A stretch of 64,000 nt of DNA from Gemmatimonadaceae bacterium (GTDB lineage Bacteria > Gemmatimonadota > Gemmatimonadetes > Gemmatimonadales > Gemmatimonadaceae), in assembly GCA_019637355.1 (NCBI GenBank), contig JAHBVT010000001.1, positions 248,001 through 312,000 on the forward strand. Direction: 5' to 3'. Every line of letters begins with the position of its first letter. Positions within the stretch are counted from its first letter, which is position 1. A program made the translations under genes and the position numbers. The notes beneath the pieces were generated by a model. That model did not search any database and had not been told where the DNA came from. It was given only the letters and a program-made list of their open reading frames with translations. Below are positions 10,217 to 40,154 of the stretch, in pieces.

Positions 10217-10744
10217 GTGCCCGAGTATGGAATGCAGTCCGGCCAGGCGCCCAGCGCGCCGCCCGTCCCACCCCTGCCGCAGAGCCCCGGGGCGGCCACG
10301 GGGGCGACGGCCACCCAGCAGCCGAACGTGAACCTGGGCATCGATGCCCAGGCCAACGCCGAGCAGGCCATCCGGAATGCGGTGCAGGCCGCGCAGAATG
10401 CCGTCGAAGCCAGTCAGGCGGTGGTCGGGCAGCCGCAGGTGGTTCGGGTGAATCCGGACATCCCGCCCGAGGTGGTGCCGATCGTGGGAATCGTGTTTGG
10501 GAGTCTGGCGCTGATGGTCATCCTCACGCCGATCGTGCGGGGGATTATGCGGATGATCGAGAAGCGGCAGGATAGGTCGCTGGTGCGCGGCGCCGAGGTG
10601 AGCCACCAACTGCATCAGTTGCAGCAGAGCGTGGACGCGCTGGCGATCGAGGTGGAGCGGATCAGCGAGTCGCAGCGTTTTCAGGCGAGGCTGGCGGCGG
10701 AGCGGGAGAAGTCGGCGCTGCCGAGCGGGCGGGACGGGGCCTGA
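10217..10744 (+). CDS. Membrane protein with C-terminal coiled coil, unknown
   Basis: 175 residues from a GTG start. A Pro-rich N-terminus (to about residue 30) precedes an Ala/Gln-rich helix (QANAEQAIRNAVQAAQNAVE), one membrane segment (PIVGIVFGSLALMVILTPIVRG, about 90-110) and a charged C-terminal coiled coil (SHQLHQLQQSVDALAIEVERI). No enzymatic motif is seen. Similar single-helix coiled-coil proteins next to ECF operons are uncharacterised. It is divergent from the sigma factor and has its own terminator hairpin at 10783-10818. Its last 64 bases overlap the convergent helicase frame. Confidence 0.7.
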   Translation: MPEYGMQSGQAPSAPPVPPLPQSPGAATGATATQQPNVNLGIDAQANAEQAIRNAVQAAQNAVEASQAVVGQPQVVRVNPDIPPEVVPIVGIVFGSLALMVILTPIVRGIMRMIEKRQDRSLVRGAEVSHQLHQLQQSVDALAIEVERISESQRFQARLAAEREKSALPSGRDGA

Positions 10745-12897
10745 CTTGGCTCCACGAGCAGCAGCAGAGTGTGGAGGCTGAGGCGCCCGGATTCCGAGAG
10801 TGAATCCGGGCGCTTTGTCGTGAGCGCGGCGAGGCCGTCGATGAACGCGCGGTCGTCCGGCGCCTCCCGCAGGAGACGCTGCACGTCGCGCCGATGGCCG
10901 ATGCCGCGCGCCGTGAGCGCACGCTGAAGGATCTGCGCCCACGCGGCACCTAACTCGGTGCGCCGGGCGAGGGGCTCGGTCGCGAGCGCGGTGTCGAGCC
11001 GGCGCCGCAGACGGCGCGCCAAGGCATCATCAAGCGCAGACTCACCGCGCAGCGTTCGCCGGGCCGCGCGCTGCGTAAGCCAGCGCTGCAGCACGCGCCG
11101 GACGCACTGCACGTGGCGTAGCTCTAGGCGTGTGGACGCGCCGTCTGCCAACTCGATCAGCGTGAGTAGGGTCGCCGGGTCGGTCGTCACACGCCAGCGA
11201 CGTCCTGTGGCGAGTCCGCCCAGCAGTTTCAGTTCTCCCGCGATGCGGACGACGGCGAGGAAGCCGGCTTGCCTTGAGCACACGGCCGCAAGGCGCTCGG
11301 TCGGGAATGGCTGACGCGGTAGCGAATCAGCGACAGGAGTCGTCCGAATCGTGAGCCACTTCGAGAGTCGGGTGCGCAGCGCGCGCGCCGCGTCGGCCGG
11401 TGCCGCCGCAGCTACGCGGGCTCGACGCTTGGCAGCGAGGCGCTCGCGCAGCGCCAGCAACGGCGCGGCCGCAGCAGGCAGGCGAAACTGCGCGATGCGC
11501 ACCTGTGCGCGTTGTCCCTCGCGGAGCACTCGGCCCTCTCGTTGCTCAAGTCGAGCCGGCGTCCACGTCGGGTCCCCGTGTACGAGCGCGGCGCAGCCCT
11601 GTAGCTCCACGCCCTCGGCAAGGAGGTCAGTGGCGATCAGCAGGCGGATGCCACGCGGATCGTCCGCGCGGTACGGCGGCGCGCCGGGGCCCAATGCCGT
11701 GAGTACCTCGGCGCGCGACCAGTTCCCGCTCGCGGCGAGGACGCGCGTGCCCGTAATCGCCACGATCCCGGGCAAGTGCAGAAGCTGGCGATGCAGTGCC
11801 CGCACGGTCTCGGCGTGATGCGCCAGCACGAGTACACGCAGCGGTGCGAGCTCGTCCAACAGCGCGACGAGCGCGTTCGCACGCGCGGCGCTGTCCTGCG
11901 CGATGTAGCCGGCGATCAAGCCGCGCATACGCGACACCGCATCGAGGTGCCGATGCAACACCGGCAGTGCGTCGCGTGGCGCTTGGGTCTGAGATGGCTC
12001 GACGACGAGGTCGAATGCGAGCTGCGTTGAGTCGTCGCCGAGCACCCAGTTGCGCAAGGCGTCACGGGTAGGCCATCGACCGGCGGAGAGGCTATCCGCA
12101 AGTGCGCGGCCGCGTTGTTCGCGTCGTCGCAGGGCCGCATCGAGTGCAGCCAAGCTCGACGCCCACGCCATCGCGAGGCCGAGCGCGACGAGCGCCGTGG
12201 CACTGCGGCCGTCAGAAGTGGGGAATGCTGGCGGCAGGGAACTGATCGCGTCCGCGAGCCCGGGGATGTCGGTGGTGCAGGGAAGGTCGGGGAGCCGAAC
12301 TGGCGCTCGCTGCTCCACCGATGTTGCGTCGCGCAGCAGCACGTCGCTGAGCACACTCGGCCGCGCCATCGCACGCGGCGAGAGGAACAGCGCAAGTAAG
12401 GCGTCGCGGTCAGCGCGGCGATTCACCACCGGTGTAGCGGAGAGGAGCAACACCGCCGCACCGCGGGCCAGCGACGCGATCTGACGGTAGCGCTGCGTGC
12501 CGGCGTTCCGAAGATGGTGTGCCTCGTCCACGATCAGTAGTGGCGCTGCGCGTGGAGCGAAGCCGTGGCTGAGTGCTTCGAGCGACGCAAAGCGCAATGC
12601 CACGCCGGCCCGCTCGGCGCTTTGCAACCATTGCGCGCGCACCGCCGCCGGCCCAGCGACGAGGACATCGTCATAGCGCGCCGCGACTGCCAGCGCGATG
12701 ACGGTCTTGCCGGTGCCCGGCGCATCGGTGAGCAGCGCTCCGCCGTGCGCGGCGATGGCGCGGCGCAACAATGCCACTGTGCGCCGCTGCGTTGGCCGGA
12801 GCACGAAGGCACCGGTGGTCGCCTCCGCTGGGCGCTTCAACACCGCCATCGCGATGCGGGCGCGCACCGCGGCGGCGGTCGTCAGAGCATCTGCCAC
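10681..12897 (-). CDS. SNF2/DEAH-type helicase of a methylase-helicase module
   Basis: 738 residues, superfamily 2 helicase. Motif Q-like RPTQRRTV, Walker A DAPGTGKT (58-65), motif II DEAHH (124-128), motif III SATP (153-156). The second RecA domain includes IATDLLAEGVELQG and the motif VI region LEQREGRVLREGQ. This set is closest to SNF2-like helicases found with phage-defence and restriction systems. It starts 16 bases inside the methylase gene, so the two are translationally coupled. The last ~35 residues (from RPDSLSESG on) are encoded across a terminator and antisense to the neighbouring gene, suggesting loss of the original stop. No nuclease domain is recognised. Confidence 0.88.
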   Translation of the reverse strand: MADALTTAAAVRARIAMAVLKRPAEATTGAFVLRPTQRRTVALLRRAIAAHGGALLTDAPGTGKTVIALAVAARYDDVLVAGPAAVRAQWLQSAERAGVALRFASLEALSHGFAPRAAPLLIVDEAHHLRNAGTQRYRQIASLARGAAVLLLSATPVVNRRADRDALLALFLSPRAMARPSVLSDVLLRDATSVEQRAPVRLPDLPCTTDIPGLADAISSLPPAFPTSDGRSATALVALGLAMAWASSLAALDAALRRREQRGRALADSLSAGRWPTRDALRNWVLGDDSTQLAFDLVVEPSQTQAPRDALPVLHRHLDAVSRMRGLIAGYIAQDSAARANALVALLDELAPLRVLVLAHHAETVRALHRQLLHLPGIVAITGTRVLAASGNWSRAEVLTALGPGAPPYRADDPRGIRLLIATDLLAEGVELQGCAALVHGDPTWTPARLEQREGRVLREGQRAQVRIAQFRLPAAAAPLLALRERLAAKRRARVAAAAPADAARALRTRLSKWLTIRTTPVADSLPRQPFPTERLAAVCSRQAGFLAVVRIAGELKLLGGLATGRRWRVTTDPATLLTLIELADGASTRLELRHVQCVRRVLQRWLTQRAARRTLRGESALDDALARRLRRRLDTALATEPLARRTELGAAWAQILQRALTARGIGHRRDVQRLLREAPDDRAFIDGLAALTTKRPDSLSESGRLSLHTLLLLVEPSQAPSRPLGSADFSRSAASLA
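10783..10818 (+). terminator. Intrinsic terminator of the 10217-10744 gene
   Basis: Perfect 12-bp stem GCGCCCGGATTC / GAATCCGGGCGC with a 7-base loop, followed by TTTGT on the plus strand, 38 bases after the stop codon at 10744. It lies inside the 3' end of the convergent helicase reading frame. Confidence 0.7.
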
Positions 12898-15800
12898 GAG
12901 AGCAGCGGCGCGATGGTCTCGTGCGAAAGTCCGTAGGCCTCGACCGCCGCCTCCGTGAGTTCCCAGGGGTTCGGCTCGACGCCCTCCACCGCCGCGCGGG
13001 CGATTGACGCGAGGTGTTCACGTGCGCGCGGCCAATCCTCGGGAATGGGGAATCGCGCGCAGGTCCAACCGAGGAATCGGCGGTAGCCGCCGCGCGCCGG
13101 TTCCGCGAGGACGGCCAGCCACGCGGCGGCGAGCGCCGAGTTGAGCAGGGCGGCGAGTGCGTAGGCATCGTCGTCGGTGGGCGTGCGGACCACGTAGCAG
13201 GTGTTGAGCGGCACGGTGGGATCGCCGGCCGGGAGCACCAGCGCGCGCGGACTGCGTCCGATGTCGCCCCAGACGACGCGCGCGCGGTCGTGTCGCGCGG
13301 CGTCGGTGCGGAACAGCGCCCACCACGGACCGCCGCGTCCGTCGCTGCGGCCCTCCAGTTGGCGACGCCAGCGCTGCAGTCGCCGCCCGGTGCGGTCGGG
13401 CAGGCGACGCAACGGAAGACCGCTGAGGTCGTGCGTCCAGATGATCGCGGCCTCGGCGGCCGCAGCGGTCGGTCGCCAGGGCGTGAGATGCTCGCCGCGC
13501 AGCAACGGGCGCAGGCAGGACGCCTCGATGCCCTGCGACTCGGCGTCTCGGCGCGAGAGCACGAAGGCCTCGTTGCAGCCGCACTTCACTCCGAGCTGCG
13601 GGCGCGCCAGTGCGCTGCGTGCGAGCGGCGTGCCCGCGGCGCTGACGGCATCGAAGGCATCGCGCACCTCTGCAGGCACGAGCAGCCACGGTGCGCCGAC
13701 GGAGTCGTCGAGCGCGAGGCGCGCCCGCGGCAGGGCCCAGGGCAAGGGGATGTCGCGGCGGTGCGCGATGACCCTTACTTCGTCGGGCGCGGCGAGTGCA
13801 CCCAGGCGCCGCGCCACGACGGCGCTGGGGTAGACGACGGCGTCGAAGCCAGCCGAGGAGTCCTGCCACTCTTCGAGGAGCAGCGGCGGTGCCAGGCTCG
13901 AGAGCAACTGACGGATTCCGCCGCCCGCCAGCGAGCCCCAGAGTTTGGCCGGCAGCAACAGCGCGATGGCGCCGTCTCGCGCGCAGAGGCGCACCGCGCG
14001 TTCGGTGAAGAGGGCGGCGAGATCCACCTGCGAGGCAAATCCTCGGCCCGCTGCGGCCTCGGTCGCGCCGGCTTCCCAGGCCGCCGCACGGAACACGGCG
14101 AAGCGCTCACGAAGCGCGGCTCGCTGTTCGGCGGGAATCGCGTGCGTGCGCACCCAGGGCGGGTTGCCGAGCACAGCGGTGAATCCACCGGCGGCGGCGA
14201 CGTCAGGAAAGTGCGTGACGAACGAGAACGGCAGTGCGGCGCCATCCTTGAGCGCCGCCACCGCCGCACGCGCGCGTCGGATTGCGGCGCGCAGGCTGTC
14301 GAGGCGTGTGCGCGTCGCGCGGTCCACGCCGCGCCGTGCGCGAAACAGGTCCGGTGCCCGCGCCGCGGCGAGCAGTTCACGCCGCGCGGCAGTGAGTTGC
14401 ACGAGACGTTGCGATTCTAGCCGGATCGCCTGCCGACGTTCCTCGCGCTCGAGCACCTGCCCGAGTGCGCGCTTGCGTTTGCCGACCGCGCGCGCGTAGC
14501 GCAGGCGCCGCGCCGCCAAGCTGCCGTCCGGCGGCAACCAGCCGTCATCGAAGCCGTGGCCGGCCAGTGCGTCACCCTCGCGGATGTTGCGGTCGAGGTT
14601 CGGCAGCGGTGGCAGGCGCAGCGGATCGTCATCCGGCTCCTCGACCACCACCGAGAGCCAGAGCCGGAGCTGGCAGAGCCACACGGCGGTGGGGTCGACG
14701 TCCACACCGAAGACTGACCGCGTGAGCACATCGCGCCGACGTTCCGCGACGCGCCGCGCGTCACCGGCGCGGCTGTGCAAGTCGGCCAACGACTCCAGCG
14801 CGTACACCAGGAATGCCCCCGAACCACAAGCAGGATCGAGCACCGTGACGTCCCGCAGCGCAGCAGCGAGCGCGGTGGCGTCCTCGTGGCGAAGCGTTTC
14901 GCCGTCCCAGGCGCGCAGCAGCGCGTCTTCGCTCACGCCGCGCGGCGTGAGGGCAGTGCTGAGCCCGTCGCGCGTGAGTTGGCTGATGAGCGAGGGTGGC
15001 GTGTAGAAGGCCCCCCGTGCGGCTCGGGTGCCCTCGTGCATCAGCGACTCAAAGGCGCGGCCAAGCATCTCGGGGTCCACCGCCGCCTCGCTCCAACCTT
15101 CTCGAGACTCGCGCGCCGTCAGACGATACCGCGTCAGCAGGCCGCCGATGACGCCTTCGAGCGCCTCATCGGTGAAGCGCAGGTCGGCGAAACGGCGTTC
15201 GCTCGGTGCGCGCGTGAAGAGTCCGCCATTCAGGAACGGCACCTTGCCGAAGGCGCGCGCGGCGCTGGCGCGGCGCGTCATCGGCGTGTTCAGCGTGCCG
15301 AACCACAGGGGTTCGAGGAAGCGCCGGTGCGCTTGCGTGCCGCCGCCGGCCCGCGCGGCGAAGTGCCGGCGGAGGAACTCGCGGTCGCCGTCGAGCCAGC
15401 CCCGCGCCTCGAGGAACGCGACGAACAACAGCCGCGAGGTGTGCAGCAGCGCGATGGTCCGGCGTGCGTCGGCCGGTGCGCGCCCGACGGCGCTGGTGGC
15501 CAAGGCCTGCACGTGCCCTTCCAGCTCCCTGTAGAAACGCCGGGTGAGCGCGGAGCGGCCCAAAGTCTCGCGCCATCGCAGGTGCACGAGCAGGTCGGGT
15601 GCGTCGGTGCAGGCGACCAGCGCAGCGATTGTTTCGGCGTCGCTCTCGCGGAGCTGCTGCGGGTTCAGTTGGTGCAGCGGTACGGGATGGCGCGCATCCG
15701 GCGGCGGTGCGGCGAGCACGATGCCGGAGGACTCCTGGTCGCGCACGAGCAGCAGCCAGGACCGCTCGGGCACCGCGCGCGCGAGGCCGCGACCGAGCGC

Positions 15801-16040
15801 GGCCACGCGTTCAGGCAGGCGTTCGCTGGATGGTTGGAGCGTGACGAGCAGGGCGCGCAGGGTGCCCGGCCCCTCGGCCACGTGCACCTTGCTGGCCAGC
15901 GTGGCGATGCCGAGCGTGCGCAGCGTACGCCGGTCGAGTGGGATGGGGTGGCCGAAGCCGAGGGCCGCTGCGAGCGGCGCGAGCGAGGTGCCGGGGCCGA
16001 GTCCGGCGAGGAGCGTGGCGGCGTCGCGGGCGGTGAACAC
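12882..16040 (-). CDS. Eco57I-type adenine-specific DNA methyltransferase (possible type IIG-like enzyme)
   Basis: 1,052 residues. The methyltransferase core has GAFYTPPSL (343-351), SAM motif I DPACGSGAF (402-410), an acidic FGVDVDP strand (444-450) and catalytic motif IV NPPW (626-629), specific for N6-adenine. A Lys/Arg-rich coiled insert lies at about 510-600. The C-terminal third resembles TaqI-like target recognition domains (LGVKCGCNEAFVLS, then LNTCYVVRTPTDDDAYALAALLNS and WTCARFPIPEDW). The N-terminal 200 residues show no clear PD-(D/E)XK nuclease, so cleavage activity is uncertain. Paired with the SNF2-like helicase it resembles reduced DISARM- or BREX-like modules; none of their other genes are present. 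Confidence 0.88.
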   Translation of the reverse strand: MFTARDAATLLAGLGPGTSLAPLAAALGFGHPIPLDRRTLRTLGIATLASKVHVAEGPGTLRALLVTLQPSSERLPERVAALGRGLARAVPERSWLLLVRDQESSGIVLAAPPPDARHPVPLHQLNPQQLRESDAETIAALVACTDAPDLLVHLRWRETLGRSALTRRFYRELEGHVQALATSAVGRAPADARRTIALLHTSRLLFVAFLEARGWLDGDREFLRRHFAARAGGGTQAHRRFLEPLWFGTLNTPMTRRASAARAFGKVPFLNGGLFTRAPSERRFADLRFTDEALEGVIGGLLTRYRLTARESREGWSEAAVDPEMLGRAFESLMHEGTRAARGAFYTPPSLISQLTRDGLSTALTPRGVSEDALLRAWDGETLRHEDATALAAALRDVTVLDPACGSGAFLVYALESLADLHSRAGDARRVAERRRDVLTRSVFGVDVDPTAVWLCQLRLWLSVVVEEPDDDPLRLPPLPNLDRNIREGDALAGHGFDDGWLPPDGSLAARRLRYARAVGKRKRALGQVLEREERRQAIRLESQRLVQLTAARRELLAAARAPDLFRARRGVDRATRTRLDSLRAAIRRARAAVAALKDGAALPFSFVTHFPDVAAAGGFTAVLGNPPWVRTHAIPAEQRAALRERFAVFRAAAWEAGATEAAAGRGFASQVDLAALFTERAVRLCARDGAIALLLPAKLWGSLAGGGIRQLLSSLAPPLLLEEWQDSSAGFDAVVYPSAVVARRLGALAAPDEVRVIAHRRDIPLPWALPRARLALDDSVGAPWLLVPAEVRDAFDAVSAAGTPLARSALARPQLGVKCGCNEAFVLSRRDAESQGIEASCLRPLLRGEHLTPWRPTAAAAEAAIIWTHDLSGLPLRRLPDRTGRRLQRWRRQLEGRSDGRGGPWWALFRTDAARHDRARVVWGDIGRSPRALVLPAGDPTVPLNTCYVVRTPTDDDAYALAALLNSALAAAWLAVLAEPARGGYRRFLGWTCARFPIPEDWPRAREHLASIARAAVEGVEPNPWELTEAAVEAYGLSHETIAPLLSWQML

Positions 16041-16300
16041 GCGCGAAGGCTCGCTCGGCGATTCCGCGTCGCGGCATCACGGCATTGCGGGTGTCATCGT
16101 GCTTCGGACAGGTCCGGACGCCAGACCCCAAGGAGTTGTTCAGGGACGTTCAATGCTCAGTCGAGCGAAGACCTTGCCTCAGAGAGTACGCCGGCGCAAA
16201 GTCAGGGGACTTCGGAAGTGGTTGGTGAATGGGCGATATCGCGCCCTGTGGTCGCGAGCGCCGGGGTTCAATCGCAGCCCACACAGTGGGGAGGAGGCGG

Positions 16301-17725
16301 ATGCTTCGATTGCGATTTGGGCGACGGCGCGGTGGAATTGGAGCGCGCGTCTTGCGAGCCGCAGTGCGATTCGCACAGGTCGCCTTTCTCGTCACGGCGG
16401 CTGTGCCGCTGAGTGCCCAGACCACCGTGCGCGGAGTGCTCTACGATTCGCTGCGGTACGCGGGCATCGAAGGTGCCGTGGTGACCGTTGTCGGCGATGC
16501 ACGAATGGGAACCAGAACTGACGCGCGGGGGATGTTCGCGCTGGTTGGAGTCGACGCTGGCAACCACATCATCCGGTTCGTGCATCCTCGGCTTGATTCG
16601 CTGGGGCTCGAGTCCATCGATGTGCCTGTGTCCATCGATGATGGCGTGGAGGAGATAGAGATCTTTGCCGCCACGCCGAGCTTGTATCGCGCACTCAACC
16701 TCCTCTGTGGTGAGTCGCCTGAGAGCACCAATCGCGTGGTTGTTCGAGTGGCGGACAGAGCGGGTCACGCGGTCGCCGAGGCAGGCGTACGGCTAGAGTG
16801 GATTGAGACCGGATTCGCGCGATCTAGAAGCACGAGGAGCACCAGTAGCAACAGGAACGTGGCAGCTACGACCGATGAGCAGGGAATGGCGGTCGTCTGC
16901 GAAGTGCCATCGCCGGGAGCGTTGGTCGAAAGAGGACCGCAAGTAGTGCGCATCTCTCCACTTCGCGTCTCGGCAAGTCGCGGAAGCCGAAGCGCCGGTC
17001 CCTTCTCGATTGAAGAGGCTGGCCCCGGCGTTCTTGTGCTCAGTCTGGTCGCCGACGACGGCAAAGATCCGGTCACCATAGCTGGCCGAGTCGCTCAGGC
17101 CGATGGGCAGTCCGTACCGGGTGCGCGGGTACGGATTGAGGAACTCAACGTCGGGACCGTCACCGATTCGATTGGAGCGTTCCTGCTGCGGGGCGTGCCG
17201 GCACGTAGCCAGGATCTAGTGGTCTCGGCAATCGGCTATCGACCGTCGCGAGTGATCGTGTCACCTGATGCAGATGCCGTGTTTGACGTCGGAGTTGTCC
17301 ACCTCGATTCGCTTGCGACCGCACTCGACACCGTCCGCATCACGGCGACCGCGTTGCCGGGCAGTGCGGCCCGCTTCGACGATCGGCGGCGCGTCCTGTC
17401 CGGCACGTTTCTCGACTCTGCTGACCTATCGAAGATGCCGCGCGTCACGCCAAGCTTCCTGGCCGGTCGGGTACCCCGCGCCCTGATCCTCAATCCGCTC
17501 GGGGGGCCACGGACGTTTGTCTTCCGCCGTCCGGGGCTCGGCGGTGAGAACATCTGCGTGCCACGGTTGTTCGTGGATGGTCAAGACCAAGGACCTCTCG
17601 ATGTCGGCCAACTCGAGGAGTTGTTGGACCGAGCGAAACGAATCGAGGTGTACCGTGCGAACTTTGCGCCCCCAGAGTTCACGGATTTTGCTGGCTGCGG
17701 TGCAGTCGTCGTCTGGACCAAGTAG
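16301..17725 (+). CDS. Exported carboxypeptidase-regulatory-like / TonB plug-like protein
   Basis: About 474 residues. A positively charged start (MLRLRFGRRRGG) leads to a signal peptide ending PLSAQ. Two carboxypeptidase-regulatory-like beta folds follow (VRGVLYDSLRYAGIEGAVVTVVG and IAGRVAQADGQSVPGARVRI). The C-terminal domain looks like an isolated receptor plug (LDTVRITATALPGS, FRRPGLGGENICVPRLFVDG, ending CGAVVVWTK) with no beta barrel after it. GAGGAGG is next to the ATG; the frame opens at 16229 but without a site. This plan is common in Gemmatimonadota-like genomes and its function is unknown. Sampled GC is lower than in flanking genes. Confidence 0.75.
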   Translation: MLRLRFGRRRGGIGARVLRAAVRFAQVAFLVTAAVPLSAQTTVRGVLYDSLRYAGIEGAVVTVVGDARMGTRTDARGMFALVGVDAGNHIIRFVHPRLDSLGLESIDVPVSIDDGVEEIEIFAATPSLYRALNLLCGESPESTNRVVVRVADRAGHAVAEAGVRLEWIETGFARSRSTRSTSSNRNVAATTDEQGMAVVCEVPSPGALVERGPQVVRISPLRVSASRGSRSAGPFSIEEAGPGVLVLSLVADDGKDPVTIAGRVAQADGQSVPGARVRIEELNVGTVTDSIGAFLLRGVPARSQDLVVSAIGYRPSRVIVSPDADAVFDVGVVHLDSLATALDTVRITATALPGSAARFDDRRRVLSGTFLDSADLSKMPRVTPSFLAGRVPRALILNPLGGPRTFVFRRPGLGGENICVPRLFVDGQDQGPLDVGQLEELLDRAKRIEVYRANFAPPEFTDFAGCGAVVVWTK

Positions 17726-17755: not shown

Positions 17756-18415
17756 TCAGCCGCGTGCCAGTCTCGCGACGAGCGGTGGCAACTCCTCCGC
17801 CCGCTCAAACCAATAGTCCGGCGCCGTCGGCTCCAACTCCGCCCGCGTGTACGGCCCCCACAGCACGGCCCCCGTGCGCACCCCGGCCGCGCGCCCCGCC
17901 TGCATATCGTGCGTGCTGTCACCCACGAACAACGCGCGCTCCGCCGGCACCTGCAGCTGCGCCAGCGCATACTGCACCGGCTCCGGATCCGGCTTGTGCC
18001 GCGTCGTCTGGTCGATCCCGACCACCGCCGCAAAGCACTCCTCGATCTGCGCGAACTTGAGCGCGCGCCGCGCCCCCACCTCCAGCTTGCTCGTCACCAC
18101 CGCCAGCGCGTGCCCGTCGGCGTGCAAGCTCCGCACGGTCTCCACCATCCCGGGGTACAGCTTCAGCATCGAGTCGTGATGCAGCAACTGGTGCTCGCGG
18201 TATCGCGCCCGCAGCAGGTCCACCTCCTCGACGTCATCGGCCCAGCGCGCCAACATCCGGTCCAGCGGCGTGCCGATCAACGCCAGCCACTCCGGCACGC
18301 TGGGCCGGCGCGTACGCCCCTCGAAGGCGTATTCCATACTCGCCACCAGCAACTCAATGGAATCCACCAACGTGCCGTCGAGGTCGAACAGCACGGCATA
18401 CGGCGCCCGGCTCAT
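17756..18415 (-). CDS. HAD-superfamily hydrolase, phosphoglycolate phosphatase-like
   Basis: 219 residues with all HAD motifs: motif I VLFDLDGTLVDS (nucleophile D11, acid D13), motif II VVTSKL, the motif III lysine in HKPDPEPV and motif IV GDSTHDMQAG. A helical cap domain between residues 20 and 80 places it in the Gph/PGP-like subfamily, which dephosphorylates small phosphorylated metabolites; the exact substrate is unknown. The ATG at 18415 overlaps the stop of a truncated glycosyltransferase tail, echoing an original glycosyltransferase-HAD operon now split by the propeller block. The first ~24 codons lie in direct repeat copy A. Confidence 0.9.
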   Translation of the reverse strand: MSRAPYAVLFDLDGTLVDSIELLVASMEYAFEGRTRRPSVPEWLALIGTPLDRMLARWADDVEEVDLLRARYREHQLLHHDSMLKLYPGMVETVRSLHADGHALAVVTSKLEVGARRALKFAQIEECFAAVVGIDQTTRHKPDPEPVQYALAQLQVPAERALFVGDSTHDMQAGRAAGVRTGAVLWGPYTRAELEPTAPDYWFERAEELPPLVARLARG

Positions 18416-18722
18416 CGTGCGCTCCGCGACACATACCCGCGCCCTTTCCACTCCACGCGGCTGCCGCGCCACGCCGCCTCGGCGCAGATCCAACTGAAGG
18501 TCACGGCCGCCAGGGGGTACAGCAGGCCCCAGAGGGGATTGAGTCGCGAGAAGGCGTACACGCCAGCGTAGTAGACGAAGGTGAAGGCCCCGGCCGCGAG
18601 CCCGAAGATCCGCGCGCCGTCGCCGGCCACGCCGAGCTGCCAGAGCAGCAGCGCGAGTAGCGGAATGGTCCACGGGAAGATACGCGAACTCACCGGGCCG
18701 AGTGGCAGGGAGTCGCGCCCGG
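18342..18722. repeat. Direct repeat copy A (381 bp) flanking the propeller block
   Basis: Matches 22342-22749 in the same orientation, offset by exactly 4,000 bp at the left end, with about a dozen substitutions over the first ~310 bp and one ~27-bp deletion in this copy. It contains the first 24 codons of the intact HAD gene and the last ~100 codons of a truncated glycosyltransferase. The left edge is sharp: the base before it differs from copy B. Confidence 0.85.
18412..18722 (-). pseudogene. 3' remnant of a family 2 glycosyltransferase gene
   Basis: On the minus strand this segment encodes GRDSLPLGPVSSRIFPW... to ...GRGYVSRSAR, the last ~100 residues of the glycosyltransferase at 22412-23587. 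Nine residues are missing after the SSRIFPW block and a few are substituted. The catalytic N-terminal domain is absent; upstream sequence is unrelated. The open frame continues to 18936 but those residues have no counterpart. Its stop still overlaps the HAD start as in the presumed ancestral operon. Confidence 0.8.
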
Positions 18723-18985
18723 TAGCTGTGTGGAGCTCCCAGACGCTGGGACAACACGGTGGCGGAGTCGTTCTACTGTGCCTCAAGAAGGCGCGAAACA
18801 AGAGACACATTATTCCGAGCCGTGAACCGCCCTTGCGGATACCCGCGCGCGCATCGACGTTTTCTGCGACCGCGCTCGGCGCGGTGCCCGCCGGACGATG
18901 GGAACACACGTCGCACACGGGCGGAACGGTCGACACTTGACTGGGCGTCTACGCCCATCACATCGGATGACTTTCGAGCCTGCGA
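18723..18985. other. Non-coding left junction of the propeller block
   Basis: About 260 bp between repeat copy A and the first propeller gene. No supported gene. It probably carries the block's promoter. A perfect 6-bp inverted repeat with 4-base loop (TGGGCG-TCTA-CGCCCA, 18942-18957) sits just before the first ATG and overlaps a TTGACT hexamer (18937-18942), but no convincing -10 element is seen. Confidence 0.4.
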
Positions 18986-20110
18986 ATGCGCAATAAGCTG
19001 AGAGCAGCCCTTCGTGTCGCACTGATTGGAGCGCTGCTTGCTTGCTGCCCGCCTCGACCTGCGAATTCGCAGCCAACCGTCGTTGTGCGAGGCACATCGG
19101 GGTGTCGAGCTTGTGAAATCCTCGTGACTCCGGGCGTGACGCTGGGCTCGACCGACGGGCCTGGCATCATTGAACATATCGAGACGCGCGCGGTGCGCGA
19201 CGGACTCGGGCGGTACTTGCTCAAGGCCAACTTCCCGACTGCCATCAGCGTGTTCGCACCCGACGGACGTTTTCTCCGGTCGTTGGGTCGCGCGGGCGGC
19301 GGACCGGGTGAGTTCCGTGGTATCGGAAGCTTGTCTGTGCTTCCCGGCGATTCACTGGTCGTTTTCGATTGGGGGTCGAGCCGTTACTCAATCTTCAGCC
19401 CTGGGCTCGACTTTGTAACGAGCGGCCCCCTGCCGCTGACTCCTGAGCTTTCAAGTTTGGCTCTTCGTTCGGGGAAGTTCCTGTTCAACCACGCGCTCTT
19501 TTCGCCGAATGAAGTTGGGCAGCCACTCCATCTTGTCAACAGGACGGGTGCCCGAGAACGGTCTTTCGGATCGTCAACGGGCGTCTATCGCCCAGACGTT
19601 CCGTTCTTGATGTCGCGAGCGATTGCCGAGTCTAGGTCAGGGCGCGTCTGGGCCGCGTCACGTACGGAGTATCGAATCGACCTCCTGAATCCTGAGACGG
19701 GCTCGATCGAACGCACGATTCGTCGCGACGTGCCGTGGTTCCCATCGGGGATGCGTCCCGAGCCTCGGGGTAGCGCAGCGACGCTCGAACCTAAGCCGTT
19801 CATTTTCGACGTGCGCGAGGATCAGGCTGGACGGCTTTGGGTGCTCATCGCAGTGGCGGATCCTCAATGGCGTTCTGCAGTTCGGGCACCTGGCGCCGGA
19901 GATAGCCACGGCACCGTTACCAACGAGCAGCGCTACAGGGACACCGTGATCGAGGTGCTTGATACCAGCGCCGGTCGACTGCTGGCGTCCGTTCGGCTTC
20001 CGCAACACATCAAGCAGTTCGTGTCCGACAACCTTATCGGAACAGTGATGGAGGACGCCGACGGTATGCCTCGCTTCTTCACGTGGCAGTTGCAGCTCCG
20101 AACACCATGA
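18986..20110 (+). CDS. 6-bladed beta-propeller exported protein (paralogue 1)
   Basis: 374 residues. Signal peptide MRNKLRAALRVALIGALLACCPP; a mature N-terminal Cys pair C-R-A-C; then propeller blades marked by the strand-turn pattern ISVFAPDGRFLRSLGRAGGGPGEF, the hallmark of NHL/6-bladed beta-propeller proteins. Later blades are more divergent (YRIDLLNPETGSIER, RLWVLIAV). No catalytic residues are evident; such proteins are extracytoplasmic binding scaffolds. It leads a three-gene run (3 bp to the next gene) and has lower GC than the surrounding genes. Confidence 0.75.
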   Translation: MRNKLRAALRVALIGALLACCPPRPANSQPTVVVRGTSGCRACEILVTPGVTLGSTDGPGIIEHIETRAVRDGLGRYLLKANFPTAISVFAPDGRFLRSLGRAGGGPGEFRGIGSLSVLPGDSLVVFDWGSSRYSIFSPGLDFVTSGPLPLTPELSSLALRSGKFLFNHALFSPNEVGQPLHLVNRTGARERSFGSSTGVYRPDVPFLMSRAIAESRSGRVWAASRTEYRIDLLNPETGSIERTIRRDVPWFPSGMRPEPRGSAATLEPKPFIFDVREDQAGRLWVLIAVADPQWRSAVRAPGAGDSHGTVTNEQRYRDTVIEVLDTSAGRLLASVRLPQHIKQFVSDNLIGTVMEDADGMPRFFTWQLQLRTP

Positions 20111-20113
20111 CGG

Positions 20114-21262
20114 ATGATGCAACCTCCTGTGCGGCTCTCCAGTAGCCTCAGGCGGCTTTGCCGAGCGTCACTGGCTGCGGTGTCGCTTGGAGGCTGCCTT
20201 GCCTGCAGCGGCGAGGAGTCGACCGCCCCGTCGGTTCCTCTGGTGTGGTCTGTCGATACCCTCGCGATTGTCGGAGTCGCAGAAGGCGACTCGATGCAAG
20301 AGTTCGGCCAGCTCATCGCTGCTGAACTCAGCGCGACCGGTGATGCCGTCCTGCTGGACCTGCGCCGCCCTGGAGTGTTCTGGTTCGATTCGACAGGGCG
20401 GTTCAGGACGGTCACCACGGTAGGGCGTGGTCCTGGGGAGGTCTTACAGCCACGCGCCATCGCGACAAGCAGTGCGGGAGCCGTGCTCGTGCTTGACGCC
20501 GCGAGCGCTCGGCTCTCGTTCTTGCGCGAGTCGGCTGGTCGCGTTGTGCTCGATTCGTCCATCAACACCTTGCGCGCGCCCACGAGCTTGTGTGAACTGG
20601 CGGGCCGTGTGTACGCCGGCTTCCTCTTAGACGGTATGGTGGCCCACGTGATAGGAGCCGACGGGAGGCCTCTCCGTTCTTTCGGGCCAGAGCCCCTCCT
20701 GCCACAGCTCGACGCTGCAGGCGATTTCGGCGTGCTCGCGCGCCGACAGATAGTCGAACCGCGGCTGTTTTGCGATTCGCTCCGTCGCCAGGTCGTGCTG
20801 GCGGGACGGTCTCACCCCGCGGTTCGCGCGTACGATTCACTCGGGCACGAAATGTGGTCCGTGGAGTTGGCGGACGTCCACTCAATCACCTTTCAGCAGA
20901 CAGAGGCGGGTGTCATAGAGGGTGTGTTCGACCCGCTGAACGGGGCAAGCTTTGTCCGATCGATGATTGCGTGGGGTCCGCAGCACCTACTCGTCCAGTA
21001 CATCCGAAGCTTTCCGGGCGGCCCTCCCGATGGAGCGGAGTTCGGCGGAATCGACTCCCGGCTGCTCGATCTGACGACAGGCGCTGAAGTCGGTCGCTCA
21101 AGCGGACTTCCCCTCATTGCGGCGACACGAGGCGACCGATTGGTCGTGATAGAGAACGTCCCGTTTCCGAGGGCGCTCATTGTTCGTCGGCGCCTAGCCC
21201 CTGAGCCAGAGGCATCGCCGGATACCTCCGAGGTTCACTCGGCGAACAGGCAGGCTCCGTGA
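20114..21262 (+). CDS. 6-bladed beta-propeller lipoprotein (paralogue 2)
   Basis: 382 residues. Signal ending in a possible lipobox (L-G-G-C, with a second L-A-C just after), then a propeller with the diagnostic blade GVFWFDSTGRFRTVTTVGRGPGEV and weaker blades (AGAVLVLDAASARLSFL, HPAVRAYDSLGHEMWSVEL). It resembles the proteins on either side in length and order of blades but shares limited identity, so these are diverged paralogues. The next gene's GTG overlaps its stop, so they are translated together. Function is unknown. Confidence 0.75.
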   Translation: MMQPPVRLSSSLRRLCRASLAAVSLGGCLACSGEESTAPSVPLVWSVDTLAIVGVAEGDSMQEFGQLIAAELSATGDAVLLDLRRPGVFWFDSTGRFRTVTTVGRGPGEVLQPRAIATSSAGAVLVLDAASARLSFLRESAGRVVLDSSINTLRAPTSLCELAGRVYAGFLLDGMVAHVIGADGRPLRSFGPEPLLPQLDAAGDFGVLARRQIVEPRLFCDSLRRQVVLAGRSHPAVRAYDSLGHEMWSVELADVHSITFQQTEAGVIEGVFDPLNGASFVRSMIAWGPQHLLVQYIRSFPGGPPDGAEFGGIDSRLLDLTTGAEVGRSSGLPLIAATRGDRLVVIENVPFPRALIVRRRLAPEPEASPDTSEVHSANRQAP

Positions 21263-22341
21263 GCGACCTTCACATCCCTCTGATCAGGCGCGCCGAGGTC
21301 CCGCTGAGACGGTGGCTTCTCGCGTTCTGTGTGCTGGCAGCGACGCCCGGCGCGGCAAGCGGTCAGGTGGCGACCATTGGAGCGGAGGGTGACATCTATG
21401 CGAAGCCAATCGGCTCTGTGGGTCCGGCTTTGATACTGGAACAGGGCCGGCTTGTCGTTGCGGACGCAAGCGAGCACACGATACTGCTCGTCACTCCCAT
21501 ACGGCGCAGTGTCCGAAGCTTCGGTCGCAGAGGACAAGGTCCGGGCGAGTTTATGCACATTTCGGCGTTCTTCCGACTCGGCCCGCAGCGCTTCGGTGTT
21601 GTGGATGCATCCGTACGGCGCGTCAGCGTGTTGCGGATTGTCGGCGACTCACTTGAGCTCGAGAGCACTGCAAGCACCGATGCAGTCGGGCGCGAGATGT
21701 GTTCGATTGGTCCACGGCACTTCCTGCACGGCAATCCAGTTCAGACACCACTTGTCGAAGTTGAGTTTGACTCGAACACGAAGAGCTTGAGCCCAGTGGG
21801 CCGATTCGGACAGCGGCTACTCCCGTTCGCGGGCGATCCGGACCATCCGATGATTCACGAGTTCAACGCAATCGGTGCGATGGGCTGTGACCCAGCATCG
21901 CGGGCGATTGCGTGGGCGCCCGCTCAGCGTGGAGCACTGCAAGTTGTAGGTATCGATAACGGGCTGGTCCAGACTATCCTGTTGCCGGACTTCTCCGGCG
22001 TCGTCTACACGGCGATTCAGAACGGCATCCGAAATTCAGTGCCCGCGGCAGGGTACCTGGAGCTCACCGAGCGAGTGTTCATAGCACGGGGCGGTTGGCT
22101 GCTCATTGGGCAGACACGGGCGGGAAGAACTGGGGCCGCGGGTTGGTGGGCACGTCTGGTTTCGACGGAGAATTCGTCCGCAGGCCAGGTACGTCGAGCG
22201 GCGGGATTCGCCTTCGCTCCGATCGCTCAGCAGTTCGGCTGGACCGCTTGTCTTTCCTCGCCGGAAGAGGATATCACGATCGTCTTTGGGCCTTCGAGTG
22301 AAGTCCCGTGCTCAGTCGAGCGCATGTTCGAAAGGCGCTAG
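21259..22341 (+). CDS. 6-bladed beta-propeller exported protein (paralogue 3)
   Basis: 360 residues from a GTG overlapping the previous stop (GTGA). Charged start then a signal peptide (LLAFCVLAATPGAASGQ). The conserved blade is HTILLVTPIRRSVRSFGRRGQGPGEF, with further blades (RRVSVLRIVGDSLELES). The stop TAG at 22339-22341 is the last base triplet before direct repeat copy B, so the block's right edge coincides with the end of this gene. Likely periplasmic or surface; partner unknown. Confidence 0.75.
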   Translation: MSDLHIPLIRRAEVPLRRWLLAFCVLAATPGAASGQVATIGAEGDIYAKPIGSVGPALILEQGRLVVADASEHTILLVTPIRRSVRSFGRRGQGPGEFMHISAFFRLGPQRFGVVDASVRRVSVLRIVGDSLELESTASTDAVGREMCSIGPRHFLHGNPVQTPLVEVEFDSNTKSLSPVGRFGQRLLPFAGDPDHPMIHEFNAIGAMGCDPASRAIAWAPAQRGALQVVGIDNGLVQTILLPDFSGVVYTAIQNGIRNSVPAAGYLELTERVFIARGGWLLIGQTRAGRTGAAGWWARLVSTENSSAGQVRRAAGFAFAPIAQQFGWTACLSSPEEDITIVFGPSSEVPCSVERMFERR

Positions 22342-22415
22342 GCCACCAGCAACTCAATGGAATCCACCAACGTGCCGTCGAAGTCAAACAGCACGGCATA
22401 CGGCGCCCGGCTCAC
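22342..22415 (-). pseudogene. 5' remnant of the HAD hydrolase gene
   Basis: On the minus strand this encodes the first ~24 residues of the HAD protein (motif I as VLFDFDGTLVDS), with GTG in place of the ATG used at 18415. The frame then runs straight into the third propeller gene, so nothing functional remains. It is the counterpart of the glycosyltransferase remnant at 18412-18722. Confidence 0.75.
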
Positions 22416-22749
22416 CGCGCGCTCCGCGACACATATCCGCGCCCCTTCCACTCCACGCGGCTACCGCGCCACGCCGCCTCAGCGCAGATCCAGCTGAAGG
22501 TCACGGCCGCCAGGGGGTACAGCAGGCCCCAGAGGGGATTGAGTCGCGAGAAGGCGTACACGCCAGCGTAGTAGAGGAAGGTGAAGGCCCCGGCCACGAG
22601 CCCGAAGATCCGCGCGCCGTCGCCGGCCACACCGAGCTGCCAGAGCAGCAGCGCCACCAGCGGCGCGAGAGGCACCAAGGCCGGCAGCTGAAAGATCCAC
22701 GGGAAGATACGTGAACTCACCGCGCCGAGTGGCAGGGTGTCGCGCCCAG
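22342..22749. repeat. Direct repeat copy B (408 bp) flanking the propeller block
   Basis: Same orientation as copy A (18342-18722), about 96% identical by eye in the first ~310 bp, and longer by about 27 bp. It begins directly after the stop codon of the third propeller gene. It contains the intact 3' end of the glycosyltransferase gene and a broken 5' start of the HAD gene. Beyond 22749 the glycosyltransferase continues while copy A does not. Confidence 0.85.
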
Positions 22750-23587
22750 CGGCGTAGACGTTCTTGCCCCAGCCGCGTCGCAGTTCGCCCAGCGAGGTGT
22801 ACATCCGCGTGGAGAGCTCGTCACGCGCGAGCACCATATGCGCGCGCAGCCCGCGCGCCGTCACCACCTGCGCGAGCCGCAGGTCCTCGGCAACGTGATC
22901 GCGCACGGCCGCGTGCCCACCGATGCTCGCGTAGGTCTCGCGCCGCATCATCACGAACTGGCCGTTGGCGATCTTGTCCAGCGGACGCATCGAGCGGCTC
23001 ATCGCCTCGAGTCCGCCGTAGCGCGAGAGCAGGATGGAGAACACGAAGGGCTGTAGCACCTTCTCCCAGAAGCTGCCGGCCTCCTGGTGCCCAGCCACGG
23101 TGAAGAGGTCGGCGCCGCGCGCTTGCATTGCCCCGACGCTGCGGCCGAGCAGGTCGGGACCGTGGCGCGTGTCGGCATCGGTGAAGCAGAGGATGTCGCC
23201 GCGCGCGGCATCGGCGCCGCTCTGGCAGGCCCACTGCTTGCCGAACCAACCGTCGGGCAGCGGCGGCGCGTCGATCACGCGCAGCTGCGCCTGAGGGTGT
23301 GCCGCTGCGATAGCGCGTGCGATGTCGCCGGTGCCGTCCTCGGAGTGATCGTCCACGACGATGATCTCCAACGACGGATACGCCGACGCGAGCAGGCTCT
23401 CGAGCAGGCGGCCGATGTTGCGGGCCTCGTTGCGCGCGGGGATGATGACGCTGACCAGCGGTGCATCCGCGCCGTGAACCGGCGCGTACTCAGCGAGCCG
23501 CCGTGTGTCGAGAAAGCGAACGACTACGCCCACGAACACCGCGCACCACAGCGCAGTGGCGAGCCAGGCCAACCAGTGCGCGCCCAC
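22412..23587 (-). CDS. Family 2 glycosyltransferase, membrane-anchored
   Basis: 391 residues. An N-terminal membrane helix (WLAWLATALWCAVFVGVVVRF) is followed by a GT-A fold with VSVIIPARNEARN, IIVVDDHSEDGT, the GKQWAC motif, the DxD-type FTDADTRHGPDLL, AEDLRLAQ and the LRRGWGKN acceptor-loop region. Three or four C-terminal membrane helices follow. This resembles CrtQ/HpnB-type transferases acting on lipid acceptors such as carotenoids or hopanoids; the substrate is not determined. The GTG start is five bases after the upstream symporter's stop. The 3' end lies in repeat copy B. Confidence 0.88.
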   Translation of the reverse strand: MGAHWLAWLATALWCAVFVGVVVRFLDTRRLAEYAPVHGADAPLVSVIIPARNEARNIGRLLESLLASAYPSLEIIVVDDHSEDGTGDIARAIAAAHPQAQLRVIDAPPLPDGWFGKQWACQSGADAARGDILCFTDADTRHGPDLLGRSVGAMQARGADLFTVAGHQEAGSFWEKVLQPFVFSILLSRYGGLEAMSRSMRPLDKIANGQFVMMRRETYASIGGHAAVRDHVAEDLRLAQVVTARGLRAHMVLARDELSTRMYTSLGELRRGWGKNVYAAGRDTLPLGAVSSRIFPWIFQLPALVPLAPLVALLLWQLGVAGDGARIFGLVAGAFTFLYYAGVYAFSRLNPLWGLLYPLAAVTFSWICAEAAWRGSRVEWKGRGYVSRSAR

Positions 23588-38532: not shown

Positions 38533-40154
38533 TGCGACTCTTCAAGATCCTGGCGCCGCTGGTTGGCGCCTTGTTGCTGTCCGTGCCGGCCTCGCTCGAG
38601 GCGCAGTCGCGTTCGGCGTTGCTGCAGCAAGCGACAGCCGCCCTCGACGACTTCGATGCGCCGCGCGCGATCCGCCTCGCGCGCGCCGCCTTGGACCCCT
38701 CGCTCGGTCCGCTCGACGCCGACTGGGCGCGCGGCGTGCACGTGCTCACGCAGATCTTGATCGAAGAGCAGCAGCCGGAGCTGGCGCAGACCTGGGCGCG
38801 CTGGGCCCTGCGCCTCGAGCCGGAGATGCCAATCGACTCGGTGGCGTTCCTGACGAACGTCGTGACGATGCTGCGCGAGGCCCGCGATGCGGCGCCGCGC
38901 TCGGCCGCCGACGAGGCGACGCGCGCGCGTTATGAATGGCCCGGGGTCACCTCCACCGCCACGGAAGCGCGGTTTCGCATCGCCAGCGGCGGTCCCGCCG
39001 TGACCGTGCTCGTGCGCGGCGTCGGCCTCGTGGGGCCGCAAGGCCTCGCCGTGCCGCCGGGCAGCTATGAACTCGAAGTCAGCGCCACGGGCTTCCTGCC
39101 GCTGCGCGTCACGCGCGAGGCGTTGCCCGGCGTCGCGATGGAGTTCTCGTTCACGCTGACCTCCGCCGCCGCGGCCGCCGCAACGCTCGGCGCCGAGGTG
39201 CAGTCGCGCCTGACCCGCGCGACGGTTCCGCTGCAGGTGACGCGCTTCGGAGGCCAGCAGGCCTGCGCCGCCGGCCTCGCCTCCGGCGGGGAGCGGCTCG
39301 TGCTCACGTCGTACAGCGCCATCCGCGGCGCCGACGCCGTCGCCGCCAATGGCGAAGTGCGCGTCGCCGCCTGGGACGTGGCAGCCAATCTCGCCGTACT
39401 CGTGCTGCCGGCCAATGCGCCGGAGCAGTTGCCCGCGACCAGCAGCGTGATCGACGGACAGTCCCTCTGGGGCGTGACCTTGGCGGAGTGTCGCACGGTC
39501 GCTCCGGCGGAGCGCGTGCTGCTCTCGCAGTGGCCGGAGCGCCCGCTCGGTCCGCTGGAGCTCGCCAACGCCCCGGCCGCCGCGGTCGGTTCGCCGCTCG
39601 TGGACTATCAGGGCAACATCGCCGGCGTCTGGATCGGTGGTGGCCGTGCCGCGCCGATGGGCGTGGTGGAGCCGCTGATCGCGAAGGCCAAGGAGAACAT
39701 CGCCGGCCAGCGAACGCTGACGCCGCAGCAGGTGGCGACGCAGGAGAACCATCGCTTCGGCTCCGTGATCATCGCGGTCGACGTACCCAACGCCACGCTG
39801 CGCGTGGTGCCAATCGAAGCCTGGCACTGGGAGGAGCTGCGCGCCGAAGGCCCCGCACCGCTGACCTTCCGTGGCGCGGCCGGTCGCTATCGCGTGGAGG
39901 CCAGCGCGCCCGGCGTCACCGCGCGCACGCAGGAAGTGACCATCCGCGCCGGTGAGACGCTGCGTTCTTCCATTTCGCTGCGCGCGGTGGCGCAGGGCGG
40001 CGCGCCCACGCAGCCCGCGGCGCGCAAGGGCTTGCCGAAGTGGGTCTGGGCGGTGGCCATCGGCGGTGCCGTCGGTGGGGCGCTGGCGTTGGGCGGTGGC
40101 GGTGGAGGCGGTAGTTCGGGTGGGACGATCGTGATCGAGGTGCCCAACCCGTGA
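38532..40154 (+). CDS. Exported PEGA / degenerate trypsin-like protein
   Basis: 540 residues. Signal peptide (ending SLEAQ); helical repeat-like region to about 130; PEGA-like strand region (LAVPPGSYELEVSATGFLPLRV, about 175-200); a trypsin-like segment about 220-395 with LVLTSYSAIRGADAV, AAWDVAANLAVLVL and AAVGSPLVDYQGNIAGVW. The usual catalytic His motif TAAH and the G-N/D-S-G-G-P loop are not present, so it is probably a non-enzymatic binding domain. A second PEGA-like region and a Gly-rich hydrophobic C-terminus (WVWAVAIGGAVGGALAL) follow. Start overlaps the kinase stop by one base; its own stop overlaps the GTG of the giant protein. Confidence 0.75.
   Translation: MRLFKILAPLVGALLLSVPASLEAQSRSALLQQATAALDDFDAPRAIRLARAALDPSLGPLDADWARGVHVLTQILIEEQQPELAQTWARWALRLEPEMPIDSVAFLTNVVTMLREARDAAPRSAADEATRARYEWPGVTSTATEARFRIASGGPAVTVLVRGVGLVGPQGLAVPPGSYELEVSATGFLPLRVTREALPGVAMEFSFTLTSAAAAAATLGAEVQSRLTRATVPLQVTRFGGQQACAAGLASGGERLVLTSYSAIRGADAVAANGEVRVAAWDVAANLAVLVLPANAPEQLPATSSVIDGQSLWGVTLAECRTVAPAERVLLSQWPERPLGPLELANAPAAAVGSPLVDYQGNIAGVWIGGGRAAPMGVVEPLIAKAKENIAGQRTLTPQQVATQENHRFGSVIIAVDVPNATLRVVPIEAWHWEELRAEGPAPLTFRGAAGRYRVEASAPGVTARTQEVTIRAGETLRSSISLRAVAQGGAPTQPAARKGLPKWVWAVAIGGAVGGALALGGGGGGGSSGGTIVIEVPNP

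Follow-up and report, generated by a model that had tools for sequence, protein, structure and literature searches.

In the genome of a Gemmatimonadaceae bacterium (assembly GCA_019637355.1), three accessory beta-propeller genes are inserted between a glycosyltransferase (GT) gene and a HAD phosphatase gene. The block of about 3.6 kb, which comprises these genes and the region upstream of them, very probably entered the GT–HAD junction in an ancestor of the species through illegitimate recombination, in which about 0.4 kb of the target became duplicated. The event is known from one genome only. Unless another locus is named, coordinates refer to the window, i.e., the whole stretch of 64,000 nucleotides that was analysed (contig JAHBVT010000001.1, positions 248,001–312,000).

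Both flanking genes are intact and are located on the minus strand. The GT gene (22412–23584) encodes a 390 aa, HpnB-like glycosyltransferase of family 2; HpnB is its best named match, with a score far below the HpnB cut-off. The HAD_2 phosphatase gene (17756–18415) encodes a PpaX/Gph-like protein of 219 aa and begins with ATG. Read towards lower coordinates, the locus consists of the GT gene, a 74-bp HAD stub, the three plus-strand cargo genes, a remnant of GT, and the HAD gene. The stop codon of GT overlaps with the start codon of HAD, and the two share the sequence GTGA.

The cargo is enclosed by two direct repeats, both read on the minus strand. Copy A (18342–18720, 379 bp) contains the last ~305 bp of GT, a remnant that is truncated at its 5' end and has lost 27 bp, as well as 74 bp from the start of the HAD gene, which is intact. 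Copy B (22342–22747, 406 bp) contains the intact 3' end of GT and the 74-bp 5' stub of HAD. The start codon of HAD is ATG in copy A and GTG in copy B, and it is also GTG in the congeners G002 and G011. The repeat search returned the pair 18342–18641/22342–22641 with 96% identity and a second block, 18645–18720/22672–22747. The full alignment of the two copies (blastn E = 8e-154) revealed 20 substitutions in 379 columns, i.e., 94.7% identity, and one in-frame gap of 27 bp located in copy A. The edges of the repeats are sharp, with a mismatch already at 18341/22341 and at 18721/22748. The first base of copy B directly follows the TAG stop codon of cargo gene 3 (22339–22341), and the HAD stub in copy B also terminates with TAG at the cargo joint, since CTAG is its own reverse complement. 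The starts of the two copies are exactly 4000 bp apart, which is a coincidence as far as can be told.

The initial annotation, made from the sequence without database searches, had described same-orientation repeats with sharp edges and a 27-bp indel, copy A carrying the whole HAD start and a cut GT tail and copy B the whole GT tail and a cut HAD start. All of this agrees with the alignment and with the comparison of edge bases. The identity of ~96% and the bounds 18342–18722 and 22342–22749 proposed there had to be adjusted to about 95% over the full repeat and to the bounds given above. It was also suggested that the propeller genes fill the space between the repeats exactly; this is true of the right end, where copy B abuts the stop codon of gene 3, but at the left end 265 bp of non-coding DNA (18721–18985) precede gene 1. 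Beyond copies A and B, the genome contains no further copy of the repeat apart from a 39-bp match, and the repeat search found no inverted terminal repeats of the inserted block. An assembly error is an unlikely source of the repeats, because the contig is 3.14 Mb in length, the copies differ at 20 sites and by an indel, and each of the two cargo junctions occurs only once in the genome.

The duplication extends across the GT/HAD overlap; therefore, both flanking genes stay whole, with the 3' end of GT preserved in copy B and the 5' end of HAD preserved in copy A. The remnant of GT has remained an open frame (18412–18936, minus strand) of up to 174 aa, and its terminal ATGA overlaps the start of HAD, which means that the two could still be translationally coupled. 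A consensus scan, which says little for this phylum, revealed no sigma-70-like promoter upstream of HAD or of cargo gene 1.

All three cargo genes are located on the plus strand. Gene 1 (18986–20110) encodes a predicted exported six-bladed beta-propeller with a weak DUF5128/NHL match; its score against Pfam PF17170 (DUF5128) is 21.2, which is below the gathering score of 22.9. Gene 2 (20114–21262) encodes a predicted beta-propeller lipoprotein, and gene 3 (21259–22341) encodes a predicted beta-propeller that is full length relative to its family. No Pfam match was found for genes 2 and 3. The possibility that gene 3 was cut by the junction was rejected, as its C-terminus is as long as in its relatives. 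No integrase, transposase, or excisionase gene is present between the repeats, which contain the three propeller genes only, and inspection of 18721–18985 by eye in six frames revealed no transposase-like sequence. The absence of a visible transposase or integrase had already been pointed out in the initial annotation.

Profile searches tie each cargo gene to approximately 67 open frames, many of them propeller-like, in the fetched loci. On this basis, the cargo genes are predicted to be members of a large, divergent family of exported propeller-like proteins distributed in this genome and in the phylum. The predicted structure of the gene 3 product is mostly beta, with a mean pLDDT of 65 (medium) and high values at residues 41–140. 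Its best fold matches are BF0058 (PDB 4raa) and NHL propellers; TM-scores near 0.4 support the propeller assignment and do not prove it. The similarity to the DUF5128/NHL six-bladed propellers, such as BF0058, consists of this fold match and of a GRxGxGPGE-like segment common to cargo genes 1–3. The difference is the very low sequence identity (about 11% between gene 3 and 4raa) and the presence of a Pfam match, below threshold, in gene 1 only.

The cargo differs from its surroundings in composition. Its GC content is 61–64% and its GC3 is 0.66–0.70, whereas the GC3 of the flanking conserved genes is 0.82–0.92, and that of 23 other propeller genes in the genome is 0.79 ± 0.07. A search for a source within the genome found a close paralogue for gene 2 only, at G000:C1:2723415-2724476, with an amino acid identity of 64–65%. 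The dN/dS ratio of this pair is 0.16, and synonymous sites are near saturation. The paralogue was rejected as the immediate source of the cargo, given that it stands alone, without repeats, at this identity and this level of saturation. In the phylum sample, gene 2 has relatives at 27–37% in two other families of the class, and gene 3 has one weak relative; no genome other than the present one was matched by both searches, and no orthologous cargo block was found. Plasmid relatives of gene 1 or gene 2 were not found, nor were relatives of gene 2 in IMG/VR. An integron cassette was also rejected as the origin of the block, since the attC core of the genome's own array is absent from the window. 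The cargo was probably gained from an unsampled relative, although it may be of internal origin with subsequent change.

The initial annotation had interpreted the locus as an ancestral overlapping GT–HAD pair split by cargo that brought or created a 0.4-kb duplication, and an empty junction in related genomes would be expected in this case. Such a junction is present in nine of the 16 congeners (G002, G003, G007, G009, G010, G011, G014, G015, and G016), where the end of GT and the start of HAD lie within about 0–80 bp of each other without cargo. All nine keep the order dctA–GT–HAD, and in most of them the methylase and helicase genes come next. In G001 and G008, there is no GT and dctA adjoins HAD, and in G005, which also lacks GT, there is a short gap at this place. 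GT and HAD are adjacent in G035, which belongs to another genus of the same family. A DNA search of the 16 congeners with the whole 4.4-kb region returned matches to the repeat segment only and never to the cargo; in each relative, the segment is single-copy and located at GT–HAD. Since GT and HAD adjoin without cargo in nine congeners and the cargo has no match in the 16, genome comparison indicates that the insertion is derived and specific to the lineage of this species among the sampled species.

The differences between the copies were polarised using G011 and G002 as outgroups. In the GT part, ten substitutions (six of them protein-changing) and the 27-bp deletion are derived in copy A, and the residues changed there include a W-I-F motif conserved in both outgroups. 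In copy B, this part has four derived substitutions, of which three are silent. The HAD part has one change derived in copy B and another that could not be polarised. The GT remnant in copy A has changed by about 3%. The counts are small, and neither the excess of derived substitutions in A (10 vs. 4, p = 0.18) nor the share of protein-changing ones (p = 0.56) is significant. Towards the cargo, copy A shows a higher density of differences (8 in 65 columns vs. 12 in 314, p = 0.011, with the split chosen after seeing the data), which could, as an alternative to decay, reflect gene conversion of the inner part or a mosaic origin. Most likely, the copies diverged after the event, with their redundant halves, i.e., the GT tail in A and the HAD stub in B, decaying, because conserved residues and 27 bp were lost from the GT remnant in A, whereas the changes in B are mainly silent. 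The divergence had been attributed in the initial annotation either to an event that is not recent or to copies derived from different strains; of these, the two-strain origin is less favoured, as the changes, few as they are, fit decay in place.

An event of this kind would require two new joints, GT/cargo and cargo/HAD. Illegitimate recombination placing the block into the overlapping conserved gene pair would duplicate about 0.4 kb of the target, i.e., produce an insertion with long target duplication, after which the redundant halves would drift. Both joints could arise in one process, namely template switching with a step back between sister chromosomes. In other scenarios, one joint could pre-exist in the donor DNA, as in homology-facilitated illegitimate recombination, or both could pre-exist in a circle that integrated by a single crossover. 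Ku was not found in the genus; therefore, Ku-dependent joining of a staggered break is unlikely, and a double illegitimate join by template switching or homology-facilitated integration seems likelier. We also rank these two routes above the circle, because a circle would itself presuppose a similar event earlier on.

The proposed event could have come about by homology-facilitated illegitimate recombination during transformation, an option that we consider tentative and less probable than not. Here, donor DNA in which the cargo was already linked to either GT or HAD would undergo a homologous crossover on one side and an illegitimate join past the homologous edge on the other, duplicating the overlap, so a single new joint would suffice. 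ComEC is encoded in this genome and in the genus, so DNA uptake is possible; ComEC also occurs, however, in bacteria without known competence. This route has been described in competent bacteria (PMC5361080, PMC2884548), but the outcomes reported in the literature surveyed are mainly insertion-deletions and not duplications. In addition, a donor with a half-broken GT–HAD pair beside cargo was not found in the 16 congeners or in the phylum sample.

Integration of a circle, which the initial annotation had offered as an example, is unlikely. A circle already carrying the 0.4-kb GT–HAD segment beside the propeller genes, looped out, for example, of another strain with the same island, would enter by a Campbell-type single crossover and give a product that looks identical, flanked by direct repeats that each restore one gene. 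The 5% difference between A and B could then be strain divergence, but decay in place explains it equally well. Reciprocal crossing-over between plasmid and chromosome at 1–3 bp of identity is known in E. coli (PMC3031569). Such a circle, however, presupposes the prior joining of the cargo to both ends of the segment, which moves the question elsewhere, and no circle, plasmid, or donor with a cargo gene beside GT–HAD was found in the 16 congeners, the plasmid and viral collections, or the phylum sample.

It is very improbable that the structure is the remainder of a larger tandem duplication, reaching from inside HAD to the end of a propeller block once located near GT, which later lost most of one GT and the second propeller copy. 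This would yield the sharp cargo/HAD joint without foreign DNA, but it needs two or three extra deletions, no relative has such propeller genes beside GT–HAD, and no remnant of a second cargo copy is present in the window. Equally little credence can be given to a mobile unit without a transposase, in which the repeats would recombine, a circle would loop out restoring the GT–HAD operon, and this circle would re-enter the GT–HAD of other cells by homology; if this were true, the cargo would spread with a conserved gene junction as its attachment site. A site-specific island driven by an integrase or transposase, with the repeats as attachment sites, is extremely improbable: gene-restoring repeats at both ends do recall integrative islands in gene ends, but integrase, transposase, and excisionase genes are absent between the repeats, attC sites are lacking, relatives have a single copy of the segment and no island, and repeats of 0.4 kb far exceed the target duplications of transposons and most att cores.

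The insertion with a duplicated target also suggests why such a structure was retained. A clean insertion or an insertion-deletion inside the overlap would break at least one gene, whereas a duplication spanning the overlap spares both. Because both genes were kept, an event of the duplication type, and not a clean insertion or an insertion-deletion, probably survived. The length and position of the repeats would then reflect which events survive and not the specificity of an enzyme.

About 0.8 Mb of the genome, sampled partly around other propeller genes and partly along the chromosome, contained no second pair of repeats like this one; therefore, such structures are rare in this genome, and this is not how propeller genes generally arrive. 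The survey otherwise revealed integron attC sites, IS110-like copies, and short repeats. At L140:12231-19453 (G000:C1, about 757–765 kb), attC-like repeats of ~130–140 bp are located between small toxin–antitoxin-like or DNA-binding-like genes, which is probably a chromosomal integron cassette array, and two 99%-identical 1.46-kb copies carry an IS110-like transposase. A further copy of this transposase is located at L132:14104-19917 (G000:C1, about 639–645 kb), together with a direct repeat of 155 bp (82%) whose copies, possibly more attC-like sites, are 5.7 kb apart. At L153:2213-7661 (G000:C1, about 1.20 Mb), several copies of an inverted repeat of ~105 bp (79–89%) lie in 5.5 kb.

Other features of the window can also be noted. 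A second gene found in the window only (16229–17725, plus strand), with CarboxypepD_reg domains and a GC3 of 0.68, is located between HAD and a conserved methylase gene; in G011 and G002, this site is occupied by ~0.65–0.7 kb of other sequence. It has no flanking repeats and therefore represents a different kind of event. The methylase gene belongs to a minus-strand pair adjoining HAD (10681–16040), which consists of an Eco57I-type methylase-like protein (12882–16040) and a helicase, is conserved in most congeners, and may be a restriction or defence module. Farther along, an open frame of 3307 aa (40151–50074, plus strand) contains many fibronectin type III domains, repeated at the DNA level, and is located downstream of a PEGA-domain protein kinase gene.

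Gene entry without a transposase by a route of this kind is already known and is poorly understood. The present locus adds a clean, polarised case in which genes were gained with no mobile element involved, in a host other than Helicobacter and with a cargo that is not a restriction-modification system. That the duplication extends across the overlap and spares both genes suggests a simple reason for the survival of such duplications at tightly packed gene junctions, and with the empty site and two diverged copies, the event could be dated and the decay of the individual halves followed. Apart from these points, it is an ordinary accessory insertion.

Several known systems were compared with this locus. 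Arabidopsis genes that have transposed without being transposons are flanked at their new sites by direct repeats of host sequence, for which long target duplication or a circle was offered as the cause (PMC2869330); the differences are a eukaryotic host with other repair machinery and many repeats of only tens of bases. Homology-facilitated illegitimate recombination (PMC2884548, PMC5361080) attaches foreign DNA to a chromosome with homology on a single side and can likewise place genes next to conserved ones. It is typically reported to be accompanied by loss or displacement of recipient DNA, and no donor homologous on one side was recovered from the congeners or the phylum sample. Integrative islands encode a site-specific recombinase, and the block does not. 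The closest counterpart is insertion with long target duplication, named in Helicobacter pylori (Nobusato et al. 2000, Gene 259:99-108) and, as far as it is presented in PMC1643837 and PMC3031569, described mainly for restriction-modification genes. As in that system, the inserted genes are absent in relatives, their target is single-copy there and directly repeated on both sides here, and there are no transposase, integrase, or inverted repeats. Restriction-modification cargo, which is frequent but not required in the cases described in these sources, is replaced here by three propeller genes in a member of Gemmatimonadota, and both overlapping genes remain intact because the duplication extends across their overlap.
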